Positions 4,624 through 29,494 of a stretch of 39,903 nucleotides of DNA are shown here, in pieces. Position 1 is the stretch's first letter; every line of letters starts with the position of its first letter. Under the pieces are notes generated by a model. That model searched no databases and was not told where the DNA came from. It saw only the letters and a list, made by a program, of their open reading frames with translations. This DNA comes from Acidobacteriota bacterium. GTDB lineage: Bacteria; Acidobacteriota; Terriglobia; Acidiferrales; UBA7541. The translations under genes were made by a program, and so were the position numbers. The DNA lies in assembly GCA_003224525.1 (NCBI GenBank), contig QHZB01000063.1, positions 1-39,903 on the forward strand. Reading direction: 5' to 3'.

Positions 4624-6420
4624 TTAGGAAGTTGGTGCTGCCGGAACAGAGGTCGGGCTCTGTGGTCGCGCCACACCGCGAGCTGCGGGCTTGCTCGGCT
4701 GCGGCGCGCCGCTACCGGCCTTTTTCTTTGGTTCTCGCCGCCGCAAGCCAACAGAGGTGCCGGTGCCGATATCAATCAGCCGCAAATTCTCGTCGGTGAT
4801 CTCCTCTGCCCGCACGATGTGAGGTGTGATCGCGAAGACAATCTCGCTTTCGGTCCGTTCTTTCTTCTCCTGGCCAAACAGGTACTTCAAGAGAGGAATT
4901 TTTGCCAGCCACGGATAACCGCTCAGTGACTGTATTTCTGTATCTTGCAGAATGCCACCCACCAGGTTAATCTCACCGTCCTCCAATCGCGTTTCGTGCT
5001 CGATGCGGCGCTGTCCAATCTGAGGTTGAGTGATATCTCCGATAGTTACCTGACCCGAGACCGATGAAACTTCCAAAACCATCTTGAGGGTAACCTCGCG
5101 ATTTGAGTGAATTTGAGGAGTAATGTCGATATTCACGCCAACATCGATATACTGAAATTGAGTGTTGACCAGCGGGCTGATACCTCCCCCACTCACCCCG
5201 CCCGCTGAGAACGAACCGGTGGCGATTGGTATGCGATCGCCGATTTTCAAAGTAGCCTTTTGTTGGTCAAGGACGCGGATTTGCGGGTTCTGGAGGACCT
5301 TGGTGTTGCCGTCGGACATAAGAAACTCGAACGAACCGCCCGGAACCCCTATAGAGAAATTGCCTCCATTCACCGAACCCAGTTTGACCACGCCCGCGCC
5401 CAGTGGGGCAGCCGCAAGAGCGATGGACGTTTTCGTTGGAACAGTCGTACCCAGATTGCGCAATCGATCACGGCTTACTTGCAACACAGCGATTTCGATC
5501 ACCACTTCGGCCTTGGGCTTGTCAAGGTCGGAGATCAATTTCTGCGCCAGTACCAGCTGGTCCGGCGTGCCCCTTAGCGTGATCGCGCTGTGCGTGGGAT
5601 TTACTTGAATCCGGGTGATGTCCAGAATTCCCTTGAGCGTGCCGACCACCTCTTGTAACTCGGCCGGCGTCGACGCGTTGCGTAGATAGAATGTTGTCAT
5701 CACGTTGTCTTCAAAGTCTTTGCGCCTGCCTTCCGCGGCCACAAAGATGGCCTTGGTCGATACCGGCCGCCAAAAGGTCTTCGATTGCATGGCAACCATC
5801 CTGAGCGCCTCGCGCAAGGGGACGTCGTCCAACTCGATATTGATACGCTGTGGCTTGTAGTCCAGGTCGAACAGCACGTTGATTCCAGCTAGCTTGCCAA
5901 TGGTCTTATAGACGTTATCCGCCGTAGTCGTCATGCGTAGTGTAAGCGGGGTGTCCGAAAAGGGTTCCAGGTCGACTGGACCTTCAACATCTTCCATCAT
6001 TTTGCTCAATGGTGACTCCGCTGTCGGCGTGGCGGCAACCCCTGCCTGGGCTTGCTTTTTGATCATTGTGGCAGTGCGGCTCATCTCTTCCTGCGCCCCG
6101 AGGTTGGATCTGTCAATCTCTGCCGCACGCTGAAATTCCACGAGTGCTTCCTCTAATTTGAGGTTATCGCGCAGCAATCGGCCCTTTCGCATATGCTCGG
6201 CTGCGGCAGACTCTCGCGACCGCAGGTAAGCCGCCATGTATTTCGAATCCTTGGGCTTCAGCGCGTACGCTTCCTTATATGCTTCATAAGCAGCATCGTA
6301 TTGGGTCTGCGATTCGGCGCGAACACCGCGGGCATACGCAGCATTCGCTTGATCGGAATAGGCTGGCGCGCTGATCGCCATACTCAGGATCAAAGCCAGC
6401 ATAATGCGCAGATGTTTCAT
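4624..6420 (-). CDS. TPR-containing secretin (GspD/PilQ-type outer-membrane channel)
   Basis: The start is set at ATG 6420, preceded by GGAGG ten bases upstream and opening with the signal peptide MKHLRIMLALILSMAISAPAYS; an upstream in-frame ATG at 6501 has no such support. The 598-residue protein shows TPR-like helical repeats (about residues 25-110), an STN domain (VYKTIGKLAGINVLFDLDY...), secretin N-domains (TLRGTPDQLVLAQKLISDLDKPKAEV) and the secretin core with the signature VGGILQDTE...PLLKYLFG...SEIVFAITPHIVR. A Pro/Ala-rich tail follows. Secretins form the outer-membrane gate for type II secretion or type IV pili. No partner secretion or pilus gene (ATPase, inner-membrane platform, pseudopilin) is next to it, so the system it serves is encoded elsewhere. 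Confidence 0.9.
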   Translation of the reverse strand: MKHLRIMLALILSMAISAPAYSDQANAAYARGVRAESQTQYDAAYEAYKEAYALKPKDSKYMAAYLRSRESAAAEHMRKGRLLRDNLKLEEALVEFQRAAEIDRSNLGAQEEMSRTATMIKKQAQAGVAATPTAESPLSKMMEDVEGPVDLEPFSDTPLTLRMTTTADNVYKTIGKLAGINVLFDLDYKPQRINIELDDVPLREALRMVAMQSKTFWRPVSTKAIFVAAEGRRKDFEDNVMTTFYLRNASTPAELQEVVGTLKGILDITRIQVNPTHSAITLRGTPDQLVLAQKLISDLDKPKAEVVIEIAVLQVSRDRLRNLGTTVPTKTSIALAAAPLGAGVVKLGSVNGGNFSIGVPGGSFEFLMSDGNTKVLQNPQIRVLDQQKATLKIGDRIPIATGSFSAGGVSGGGISPLVNTQFQYIDVGVNIDITPQIHSNREVTLKMVLEVSSVSGQVTIGDITQPQIGQRRIEHETRLEDGEINLVGGILQDTEIQSLSGYPWLAKIPLLKYLFGQEKKERTESEIVFAITPHIVRAEEITDENLRLIDIGTGTSVGLRRREPKKKAGSGAPQPSKPAARGVARPQSPTSVPAAPTS

Positions 6421-26034: not shown

Positions 26035-26831
26035 TTAGCCTCGCCGGGACCTCACAATTCTACTCCAAGTCCTGTTTGGTACACAGTTTGTGATGTGGTA
26101 TGGGCTACGGGCGCCATCGCCAGCAAGTAAAGCATCATCAATTCGGAATAGGTATCCCAGCGGGTCGCAAGAAACCCGTTCTCTGGTGTCCAGCCCATCG
26201 ACAGCGTTGTTCCTCCGTTCAGCATCCAGTTGAAATCCACGTTGTTGTAAATTTGCGTCGCTAGCCCGGGAATTTGCGCGTCTTGCTAAAAGTGCTGCCG
26301 GCAGACCAGCACGCCGCACAGCAAAATGGCCGTGTCGATCGACGATACTTCGGAAGTGAACGCTCGCACTCCTGAAGTCATGTCGACGAAGTGATAGCAG
26401 AAGCCGTTCATCCCCTGCGGCTGCATCTGATTGAGGAGAAAACTCAGCGTTGTTTGCACGCGATCGCTGATCGACGATGTTGGCTGGTATCCCCGCTGAT
26501 CTCCGATGCACAGCGCTGTCAGCCCAAATCCGGTGGAAGCTATGCTTGAGACCGGCCGGTTGTCATTTCCACCCGCCGCGAAAGCGCGATCCTTGATTTG
26601 CCCCGTCCCCGGGTCGGCTTGCTCCCAGAAGAACTGAAAAGCCGCTTTGGTAATTTCCTCTAGGAGCTGGTCGTCGGTTCCGAAATACCCGTCGCCTGGT
26701 GGCGGAGGCATAACCAACGAACTTCCGCCACCGCATCCTGCCACAAGAAAAGGCAGGTTCGACACCGTACAGGCTCCTGCTGTCTTCCCCAGGTTCGCCA
26801 GCAGTTTCCGGCGTGTGATGATTGAACTCAT
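26035..26831 (-). pseudogene. Decayed glycoamylase-like gene with in-frame amber stop
   Basis: From ATG 26831 the frame encodes a Tat/lipoprotein-like start (ITRRKLLANLGKTAGACT...VAGCGGG). The N-terminal half of a glycoamylase-family domain follows (LLEEITKAAFQFFWEQADPGTGQIKDRA, SIASTGFGLTALCIGDQRGY, GFCYHFVDMTSG). A TAG at 26286-26288 interrupts it, yet the same frame continues with QDAQIPGLATQIYNNVDFNWML, TLSMGWTPENGFLATRWDTYSELMML. It then loses the family pattern near 26110, where a second frameshift is likely, and stops at 26052. The normal C-terminal half is absent. It is probably a dead gene rather than a read-through product. Confidence 0.75.
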
Positions 26832-27026: not shown

Positions 27027-27563
27027 TCAAAGAAGTGGTTTCACCGCTGACTCGATAACGTCGGTGTACTCAAATCCCACGACCTTCTTCCGCAGTATTC
27101 CTTGGCGGTCATAGAGCATTGTTGTTGGCAAACCTTCGATGCCGCCAAACTTCTGTTTCAAGTCGTCCGGGGCGACGGCCAGCGGATAGCGCACTCCGAT
27201 TTTTCTTGCGAATTGAATGGGGTCCTCCATATCCATCATGGTATCGAACTTGAATCCGATGACGGCAAATCCGCGTGAGCCGTAGAGATTGAGGAGTTTC
27301 TGATAGCCGGGCATCTCTTTCTTGCACGGCTGACACCAGGTGGCCCAAAAATCAACGAGCACCACCTTGCCGCGAAGGTCAGCCGATGAGATTTCGCGGC
27401 CCTGCAAGTCTTTCACGGAGAACTCGGGCAGGTATGAACGAATTTCACCTGCCGAGATTACGGCTTGTTTGGGCTGGGGAGAACTCGCCGGTTGCTGATC
27501 GCATCCGGCGAGGCCGAGTCCTGCAAGGCTGAGAAAAAACAGACTTTGTTTTAGTCTTAGCAT
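27027..27563 (-). CDS. TlpA/ResA-type thioredoxin-like lipoprotein
   Basis: A 178-residue protein whose ATG (27563) directly follows the stop of the HMA gene (27564). Signal with lipobox LAGC (C21). The thioredoxin fold begins at about 45 (LPEFSVKDLQGREISSADLRGK). The redox motif is WCQPC (C77, C80) in VLVDFWATWCQPCKKEMP, and the cis-proline segment is EGLPTTMLYD. TlpA/ResA proteins are periplasmic thiol reductases for cytochrome maturation or copper centres. Here its job is probably to keep the co-encoded metal-binding HMA protein reduced, since the genes are fused head to tail in one operon; this is inference from position. Confidence 0.93.
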   Translation of the reverse strand: MLRLKQSLFFLSLAGLGLAGCDQQPASSPQPKQAVISAGEIRSYLPEFSVKDLQGREISSADLRGKVVLVDFWATWCQPCKKEMPGYQKLLNLYGSRGFAVIGFKFDTMMDMEDPIQFARKIGVRYPLAVAPDDLKQKFGGIEGLPTTMLYDRQGILRKKVVGFEYTDVIESAVKPLL

Positions 27564-28088
27564 CTATTCCTTCTTTTGCACTTCGAGAATCAGCAGCTTC
27601 AGGGATGCCGAAGCTTCCGGTTTCTTCTTCCCCGCAGGCTTGTGGTACAACTCGCCGCGAAGGGTGAAGACCGCAGGTGAATCGGCAAGCGGTTCAACAG
27701 TCTTTAGTAAATCATTTGGTGCGATCGTAAAGGACTGATTCGGCGAAACCTGTAAAGCGAGATTGCCCGAAGTGTCCTTGACTATTTTTCCGCGCGCGGT
27801 TACTTCCATCTCCGCAACGGTCACACCACTGTCGTAAACCGCTTTGAGAAGTTGAGCGGGATCAATCTGGCCGTCTTCCTGGGGCGTAACATCGACCTTT
27901 CCATCGATCAAGCTAACATCCACTTTTTGAACGCCAGACTGGCGTCCGAGGTGTTGTTTCACCCCGTAGGCTCAAAAGTTTCAGGTCATGCCTTCGACGC
28001 GCATTTCGATGTGCTTGATCTGTGCCTGCAATGTCGGCACAAACACGCAACCTAGCAAAAATAGCAACACGAGTTTTCTTGTGTTCAT
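27564..28088 (-). CDS. HMA-domain metal-binding protein, candidate UxxU selenoprotein
   Basis: Read from ATG 28088 (AAAGGA 6 bases upstream), the frame is open for 174 residues to 27564 except for two TGA codons, at 27981-27983 and 27972-27974. The product starts with a signal peptide (MNTRKLVLLFLLGCVFVPTLQA). The HMA/MerP fold follows: HIEMRVEGMT-U36-NF-U39-AYGVKQHLGR, VQKVDVSLIDGKVDVTPQ, DPAQLLKAVYDSGVTV. In HMA proteins the motif is GMTCxxCA, so both TGA codons fall exactly on the metal-binding cysteines. A hairpin at SECIS distance follows. The C-terminal 80 residues (NQSFTIAPNDLL, FTLRGELYHKPAG) are unassigned. Conventional gene calling would start at GTG 27962 and miss the motif. The protein is periplasmic, in an operon with a TlpA-type reductase. 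Confidence 0.85.
27929..27947 (-). promoter_or_regulatory. Candidate bacterial SECIS hairpin
   Basis: On the minus strand GGACGCC pairs with GGCGTTC (7 bp, one G-U pair) around the loop AGTCT. The stem begins 24 bases after the second in-frame TGA, placing the apical loop about 31 bases downstream. The loop has a G at its second position. Spacing, small loop and early loop G agree with known bacterial SECIS elements, which lie in the coding region right after the UGA. Confidence 0.6.
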
Positions 28089-28099
28089 TGTTCATCCTT

Positions 28100-29062
28100 T
28101 CATTTGAAGTGAAGCCGAAACTGACGAGTAATTCCGAAACTGATGTGACGGCGGACAGGCATGAACATGGCGCCGGCCGAATGCGCAACATCCCAATCCA
28201 TGCCGAGCCAGACGTGCATTCCCGGACGCACACCTACGTAGGTCGTGATTCCTGCGAGCAAAACGTCGCCGCCGCTGCCGCTCTCTGTGACCGCCGCGAT
28301 GCGGTCATCTTGAGAGTGCAACCAAGTCAGGACGGGCCCAATGAACCATTCACGGGCCCCGTTCTTCGATTCATAAGGACGGTAGGATATCCAGAAGCGC
28401 GATTCGACGTCGCTGCCCAGGCGGCTCTTTTGCGTCCCTGGCGCGCGCAAGAGAGAATGGAAATCCTCGTCGGCGACAAGCCGCCTGAGATGGAAGAGCC
28501 CGGTGTAAGTCCAATTCGCTGCCACGAAGAAATCGCTAGAGCCCGAACCGGGCTGCAGACTCGCGGGCAGCCGTTTTCCGCTCCTAGCAGCTAGATTCGT
28601 TCGGCCTGTCGGAAGTTTGGGGCCTAACGTCACGGAAGCTTGCGTCGTGCCTCGTTTGGAATCCCGCCGGTAGAAGCGGTATTTCACGAGTACCCTCGCG
28701 TCGCCAAGACCTGTACCGCCACTCAGAGGATTCCCGTTCGCGTTTGGCATTTCGAAATGATTCGTCACCACAGGCACGAGCACTGTCAAATCAAAATCGC
28801 GGCGGAACCCCCAAGTGAAGTTGAAATCACCCTCGTGCGAAAACGTAGGGCGTGCCGTCAAGGGAATATCCCCCGACAGGCCGGAGATCAGGCCGCGGGT
28901 GGTGAAAATGGAGTTGTAGGAGATTAGTCCACCGCCAGGGAACAGCGGAGGTGCTGTCTCAGGAGCAGGTCCTTGCGCACCTGCTGCCGAAGCAAAAACC
29001 GCCAGAAGAACCAGTCCGAGCGGCCAAGGCCGCCCACGACCTCTTGCGTTTCGAAATCCCAT
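28100..29062 (-). CDS. Outer-membrane transporter-like beta barrel of the metal operon
   Basis: A 320-residue protein with a signal peptide (PWPLGLVLLAVFASAAGAQ). A strand-rich body follows, with phrases GDFNFTWGFRRDFDLTVLVPVVTNHF, GTGLGDARVLVKYRFYRR, ASVTLGPKLPTGRTN and ISFGITRQFRLHFK, ending in an aromatic-hydrophobic stretch. The 'GlGDa.l..Ky.....' plus 'G.klPtG' pattern is typical of the transporter/phenol-meta-pathway-like outer-membrane barrel family often found in metal-handling operons. It ends 11 bases before the HMA gene. The substrate is unknown; metal export or sensing is suggested only by its neighbours. Confidence 0.8.
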   Translation of the reverse strand: MGFRNARGRGRPWPLGLVLLAVFASAAGAQGPAPETAPPLFPGGGLISYNSIFTTRGLISGLSGDIPLTARPTFSHEGDFNFTWGFRRDFDLTVLVPVVTNHFEMPNANGNPLSGGTGLGDARVLVKYRFYRRDSKRGTTQASVTLGPKLPTGRTNLAARSGKRLPASLQPGSGSSDFFVAANWTYTGLFHLRRLVADEDFHSLLRAPGTQKSRLGSDVESRFWISYRPYESKNGAREWFIGPVLTWLHSQDDRIAAVTESGSGGDVLLAGITTYVGVRPGMHVWLGMDWDVAHSAGAMFMPVRRHISFGITRQFRLHFK

Positions 29063-29137: not shown

Positions 29138-29494
29138 TTAAATGCGAAGAGGCAAAGGTGCCGCTGCTTGTGGGACAGGTGGCGCGTGGCAATGCGCAGT
29201 AAGAACCCTCGACGGGGAAACCAAGACTTGCGATGCACTAAACCCTAGCAATACAGCGACGAAAACAGGTGAGAAGGTTAGAGCATGCGCTGAGGCCGTC
29301 TGTACAAAGGGCGCGTGCATGGACGGCATGGACTTGCAGCATTCCTGGCTATGCTCGTGGCCGTGCGACGAGCAAGGCATCGAATCGCAGCATTGCGTCG
29401 CGGCAGCCGGCGTCGACACGGCTAAGCAGTCGAACGCATACGTGGCAAAGGCAACCGTCATTACCGCCAGCAGAATTGGCCTGATAAAACTCAT
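29138..29494 (-). CDS. Small Cys/His/Met-rich exported protein, first gene of the metal operon
   Basis: A 118-residue protein with a signal-like start (MSFIRPILLAVMTVAFATYAFDCLA). A dense cluster of soft-metal ligands follows (QCCDSMPCSSHGHEHSQECC, KSMPSMHAP), then a hydrophobic helix (LTFSPVFVAVLLGFSA) and a Pro-rich tail. CC, HGHEH and MPSMH patterns suit copper or another thiophilic metal. No named family is recognised. It lies 75 bases before the barrel gene on the same strand and probably opens the operon that continues through the barrel, the HMA protein and the TlpA-like protein. Confidence 0.65.
   Translation of the reverse strand: MSFIRPILLAVMTVAFATYAFDCLAVSTPAAATQCCDSMPCSSHGHEHSQECCKSMPSMHAPFVQTASAHALTFSPVFVAVLLGFSASQVLVSPSRVLTAHCHAPPVPQAAAPLPLRI

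Follow-up and report, generated by a model that had tools for sequence, protein, structure and literature searches.

Predicted selenocysteine pair at the metal-binding site of a two-domain HMA protein family in Acidobacteriota

Gene, domains and operon

The window (the whole stretch of 39,903 nucleotides analysed here) comes from the draft genome of a soil Acidobacteriota bacterium, designated G000, which is 98% complete and consists of 516 contigs. On its minus strand, four genes follow one another in the order small Cys/His/Met-rich protein, outer-membrane barrel, selenoprotein and TlpA-type thioredoxin. The first gene of the set (29138–29494, present in 12 of 14 neighbourhoods compared) encodes a small secreted or membrane-anchored protein rich in Cys, His and Met (CCDSMPCSSHGHEHSQECCKSMPSMH), which matched no Pfam or NCBIfam family and is a possible metal binder. 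The second gene (28100–29062) encodes an outer-membrane beta-barrel-like protein of the PF13557 type, found upstream of the selenoprotein gene in all 14 neighbourhoods; the PF13557 model itself is reached by two distant relatives of the barrel, not by the window copy. The selenoprotein gene (27564–28088) is followed directly by a gene for a TlpA/ResA-type lipoprotein thioredoxin with a WCQPC motif (27027–27563), whose start codon abuts the selenoprotein stop codon, and which lies downstream in 14 of 14 neighbourhoods. Next to the operon, at 26035–26831 of the same strand, a lipoprotein-like frame (26286–26831) seems to end early, with a possible continuation in another frame (26035–26511), and a frameshift may have disrupted the gene.

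With TGA read as U, the minus strand of 27564–28088 gives a frame of 174 residues that closes with a TAG stop codon (27564–27566) and contains U only at residues 36 and 39. It reads MNTRKLVLLFLLGCVFVPTLQAQIKHIEMRVEGMT-U-NF-U-AYGVKQHL and ends in VQKKE; the sequence around the pair is IKHIEMRVEGMT-U-NF-U-AYGVKQHLGRQSGV. The two in-frame TGA codons, UGA1 (codon 36, 27981–27983) and UGA2 (codon 39, 27972–27974), sit exactly at the first and second Cys positions, respectively, of the CxxC pair of HMA/CopZ/MerP proteins (GMT-U-NF-U in the window). A reading of 27564–28088 on the plus strand was rejected, as it has TAA and TAG stops in frame.

Three parts can be distinguished in the encoded protein. 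Residues 1–22 (28023–28088) form a predicted signal peptide, recognised from a hydrophobic leader ending in LQA, in a region where the structural model is of low confidence. The HMA domain comprises residues 24–96 (27801–28019). The Pfam HMA model (PF00403) matches residues 29–84 with 35.5 bits against a cut-off of 24.8, with C in place of U, and sequence and fold searches of the PDB with residues about 22–99 lead to CopZ, MerP, PacS and the Menkes/Wilson domains (Z about 10–11.5 for the CopZ, MerP and PacS folds). Residues about 98–174 (27567–27797), common to the Sec and the Cys relatives, are tentatively described as a second, OB-like domain: OB folds (SSB, PriB) dominate the list of fold matches to the model, of which the best reaches a Z score of only 7.8 at a pLDDT of 72. 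The original prediction, which named no strand, described a signal peptide, GMT-TGA-NF-TGA-AYGVKQHL, and then an HMA fold up to the stop codon. Both TGA codons and the open frame stand as described, but the HMA fold is confined to residues about 24–96 and is succeeded by the OB-like domain. The product is very probably a periplasmic two-domain selenoprotein, that is, an exported HMA protein with Sec at both sites. Standard annotation splits the gene in two, hiding the protein, and the family is split or dropped in the routine annotation of genomes of the Acidobacteriota, which are abundant in soil.

Conservation of the two UGA codons and the Sec machinery

A scan of GTDB genomes gave 15 loci with homologues, and in a scan of 89 genomes from the same taxonomic family, 16 proved to carry full-length homologues at 50–99% identity; after the removal of duplicates, 22 distinct close orthologues were retained. 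In every close homologue both codons are TGA and the aligned frame contains no other stop. A phylum-wide profile search added six further UxxU genes from several families of the Acidobacteriota, at identities as low as about 25%, with the motifs UNAU (two), USLU, UPLU (two) and UGLU, and with differences in the surrounding residues as well. All 28 distinct UxxU genes thus have both TGA codons, in a frame that contains no further stop over the aligned region. The C-terminal domain could be aligned in five of the six distant genes; the sixth (L071) has a divergent tail and was excluded. The search of plasmids returned a single distant HMA match (34.8% identity over 53% of the query).

A frame with two internal stops, in a draft assembly of 516 contigs, might indicate a pseudogene or an error of sequencing or assembly. 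This reading, to which we assign practically no probability, is refuted by the comparative data, since the identical two TGA codons recur in independent assemblies of 22 distinct close orthologues and in the six distant genes, the rest of the frame is intact, and the operon around it is conserved. The earlier argument that two stop mutations would hardly fall by chance on just these codons is borne out by the same genes, and the frame, far from being randomly broken among the homologues, is intact in all of the close ones.

The exchange of Cys and Sec sought at residues 36 and 39 was also found, with CxxC and UxxC homologues aligning exactly at these positions. Five CxxC relatives share the two-domain architecture (L067, L070, L072, L073 and L074, with GLTCPFC or GLSCPFC/GMSCPFC), as do two UxxC relatives (L076 with UPFC and L057 with UEVC), and the UPFC gene L076 stands in tandem with the CPFC gene L067 in one genome. 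Such an exchange is the classical signature of Sec in the place of a catalytic or ligand Cys. Comparison of the homologous genes shows that selection maintains both UGA codons as sense codons, and that Cys stands at the corresponding positions of homologues. The gene tree is weakly supported; the UxxU, UxxC and CxxC labels cluster on it beyond chance, and the number and direction of the switches are not readable from it. The UxxU, UxxC and CxxC orthologues form a clean natural set for asking what selenium buys in metal binding.

The genes for Sec synthesis and insertion were sought in G000 by family search, and the four named in the original prediction, selA, selB, selC and selD, are all present. 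SelA scores 471 bits, SelB 364 bits and SelD 351 bits; the SelD gene (L022, G000:C379:15159–16124) itself carries a TGA in frame, at the established Sec site (AAGUAAK). The tRNA-Sec gene, selC, scores 63.8 bits with Rfam, and ARAGORN assigns it the anticodon TCA (UCA in RNA). SelA is found in 77 of the 89 genomes of the taxonomic family and in 15 of the 16 that carry the UxxU gene, and as it is nearly universal in the family, this co-occurrence is compatible with the selenoprotein reading but does not discriminate. TGA is an ordinary stop codon in 9 of the 21 likely genes of the window, which means that the genetic code is not simply reassigned.

An equally open frame would result if a recoded or suppressor tRNA inserted Cys, Trp or some other standard amino acid at UGA, TGA = Cys being the case in point. 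We consider such decoding highly improbable, given the complete selABCD set with its UCA tRNA-Sec, the use of TGA as a normal stop in those 9 of 21 genes, and the hairpin obeying the SECIS rules which follows the UxxU versions of the gene and is absent from the CxxC versions (see below). The proposal that the two UGA codons specify selenocysteine is upheld by the selABCD genes, the Cys/Sec exchange, the intact frames and this bSECIS-type hairpin, and Sec almost certainly occupies both positions, residues 36 and 39.

Any Sec codon yields a truncated product when Sec-tRNA is short, and two consecutive UGA codons would make a product especially sensitive to such a shortage. The codons could hence act mainly as a selenium-sensing switch, with the full-length protein made only when selenium is plentiful. 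We regard this as very unlikely to be their main role, because selection on the full-length protein is evident from the CxxC relatives and from the conservation of the frame beyond the UGA codons, and the truncated product of 35 residues would be a bare signal peptide with about 13 further residues.

Hairpins downstream of the UGA codons

Two hairpins can be formed in the RNA that follows UGA2. Hairpin 2 (27930–27946, minus strand) is the candidate bacterial SECIS. It has a CGCC-AGUCU-GGCG core, a stem of 6 bp, a loop (AGUCU) of the N-G-[G/U]-N-N type and an MFE of -10.3, and is placed 31 nt after UGA2. In the published bSECIS consensus model the distance between the UGA and the loop is 16–37 nt (PMC13188914, Fig. 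2A), and relative to UGA2 hairpin 2 agrees with the published rules. Its loop varies among the relatives (AGGCU, AGGAU, UGGAU, UGGAA), and all of the rules hold relative to UGA2 in 28 of 28 UxxU genes and in 0 of 5 CxxC genes. The stem is absent in the five CxxC genes and in the two UxxC genes; the latter would therefore need another element. The CxxC proteins mostly have Lys or other residues where the codons of the hairpin encode Arg or Gln, so that the missing stem of the CxxC genes partly reflects the difference in amino acids.

Selection on the RNA is also suggested by the synonymous diversity, which is 0.04 over codons 49–54 compared with 0.44 in the remaining codons (p = 8e-5), and by the six-fold degenerate Arg codon within hairpin 2, which is invariably CGC. 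When the native RNA was compared with synonymous reshufflings encoding the same protein, most UxxU genes (13 tested) fell among the most stable 1–2%; L055 and L056 were not significantly more stable than their shuffles, and L069 was borderline. Three CxxC genes also fell below 3%, so it is the specific hairpin that discriminates, not the overall stability. The search of the window with Rfam at the gathering thresholds gave no match, and the case for a SECIS accordingly rests on the comparison of the relatives.

The geometry relative to UGA1 is different. The loop of hairpin 2 lies 40 nt from UGA1, outside the published 16–37 nt, and the rule does not hold for this codon. As a subset of putative bSECIS elements breaks the consensus model (PMC13188914), this distance weakens only the idea of a single textbook element for both UGA codons. 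Hairpin 1 (27948–27965, minus strand; GGGGUG-AAACAA-CACCUC), located between UGA2 and hairpin 2, has its loop 21 nt from UGA1 but lacks the leading G. It is formable in most relatives, with a 3' arm that slips by 1–2 nt, and in distant relatives substitutions in both arms preserve the pairing (GGGGUG/CACCUC in the window, GGGUC/GACCC in L064, GGGCC/GGCCC in L068). The same slippage of the register accounts for the weak covariation support in a count over fixed columns (only 66.7% paired cells) and for the merely modest consensus returned by RNAalifold for the close set.

We propose that SelB and Sec-tRNA(Sec) would decode both UGA codons, guided by hairpin 2, and that hairpin 1, as a spacer, may bring the UGA codons closer to hairpin 2 and shorten the effective distance to UGA1. 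In contrast to the published bSECIS elements, here one hairpin follows two UGA codons that are 9 nt apart, with UGA1 40 nt from the loop and a second hairpin in between. The gene offers a compact test case for two closely spaced Sec insertions from one SECIS in bacteria.

Known families, neighbours and possible function

HMA-type metal-binding selenoproteins with UxxU are already catalogued. The family NF041115 (UxxU_metal_bind, 'metal-binding (seleno)protein') is listed as a PRK13748-like 'putative mercuric reductase' with UxxU and 2 Sec (PMC9312934, PMC13188914), and this reduces the novelty of the present finding. The window protein resembles it in the HMA-type domain, in Sec at both metal-binding positions and in bacterial Sec decoding, but scores 39.6 bits against a cut-off of 95. 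Moreover, the NF041115 model is a single domain of 74 residues, whereas the window family adds the OB-like domain and the operon with the barrel and TlpA. In a scan of 396 Acidobacteriota genomes with NF041115, none (0/396) reached the cut-off, and there were many sub-threshold HMA matches. What is new here, as far as sequence comparison can tell, is a family far below the NF041115 cut-off with an additional conserved domain and a distinct conserved operon. The literature search found no paper that joins UxxU with HMA or describes an HMA selenoprotein of Acidobacteriota.

Other models are matched in the HMA part. NF045683 (MerT/CopZ fusion-like heavy metal transport selenoprotein) likewise describes a selenoprotein with a CopZ-like HMA domain; it is, however, a fusion model of 235 positions with a MerT-like part, and the window protein matches only its HMA part, with 29 bits against a cut-off of 375. 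MerP (TIGR02052, 30.7 bits, cut-off 92.55) and CopZ (NF047957, 50.7 bits, cut-off 85) have the same HMA fold and the GMTxxxx loop, and MerP is also exported, but both use CxxC, while the window protein has UxxU and an extra C-terminal domain.

The neighbours of the family point to a common theme, which is probably the handling of soft metals in the periplasm. Distant homologues of the barrel adjoin UxxU or UxxC genes in other families (32% identity at L097, weaker at L098 and L100). The surroundings of the distant members L098 and L100 include MerR-type regulators, MerT-like membrane proteins, a MerTP fusion and CusB, and one closer member (L103) lies near a CusA/CzcA-type pump. Both isolated MerT-like proteins were identified by inspection and are matched by none of the NCBIfam models. 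Because the distant relatives adjoin MerR, MerT-like, MerTP and CusB genes, the role of a soft-metal (Hg/Cu/Ag) chaperone is the most likely one. Mercury as the specific metal is a more doubtful, tentative suggestion. No mer genes were recognised in the window operon, which has the barrel and TlpA instead and hence lacks the MerT/MerA operon context that marks MerP, and a search for MerT in the window's own genome, run without a positive control, gave no match.

The main rival to a role in metal binding is a redox function, in which the Sec pair would cycle between diselenide and diselenol, be reduced by TlpA, and serve as a periplasmic electron shuttle or a peroxide-resistant reductant on an HMA scaffold. 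The WCQPC thioredoxin abutting the gene in 14 of 14 neighbourhoods is consistent with such a cycle, as is the presence of a TlpA-type thioredoxin next to a UxxU gene of a different family (L097), and the known Sec sites are mostly redox sites (2026 review, PMC13188914). The fold and the position of the motif are, on the other hand, those of metal chaperones, the relatives adjoin the metal-related genes named above, and a metal site in the periplasm would equally be expected to have a TlpA partner that keeps it reduced. On balance we hold the redox function to be unlikely.

In the preferred reading, as a soft-metal chaperone, the exported protein would hold a selenolate pair in the usual metal-binding loop of the HMA domain and capture a periplasmic soft metal ion, which would be Hg(II), Cu(I) or Ag(I). 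For export or detoxification of the metal it may partner the Cys/His/Met-rich protein and the outer-membrane barrel, delivering the metal to the barrel or co-operating with it, and the TlpA thioredoxin encoded next to it might keep the Se-Se (or Se-S) pair reduced. Discussions of Sec mostly concern its role in redox catalysis; here both metal-binding residues of a classic metallochaperone would be exchanged for Sec, and the exchange is conserved across the Acidobacteriota phylum together with a matching RNA element. The reading in its complete form, that is, phylum-wide two-domain periplasmic UxxU metallochaperones of Acidobacteriota, in which one SECIS and a spacer hairpin direct the insertion of two Sec encoded 9 nt apart, and which act with a dedicated barrel and thioredoxin in the export of Hg, Cu or Ag, comes close to an even chance in our estimate, though somewhat short of it.

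Several further loci were noted in the course of the searches. At L098 (G465:C87:42500–60000), UxxC and CxxC copies of the selenoprotein family stand in tandem within a metal-resistance island, which also contains two MerR-type regulators, a MerT-like protein, CusB, a large pump-like frame and the MerTP fusion. This fusion scores 158 bits on NF041115, and the HMA match at C87:56369–56581 is reported with one TGA in frame; the FAD reductase of the same locus is closest to the glutathione reductase and MerA models, below both cut-offs. At L097, a YHS-domain protein (4632–5039, plus strand) lies between the UxxU gene and the barrel gene and weakly matches NF041384 ('YHS domain-containing (seleno)protein'). 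Some of the sub-threshold NF041115-like HMA matches have exactly one TGA inside (L081 in G411:C2, L082 in G405:C113, L084 in G089:C6, L096 in G187:C113, and others), and these either represent additional candidates for Sec/Cys HMA proteins or have an ordinary stop at the edge of the match.
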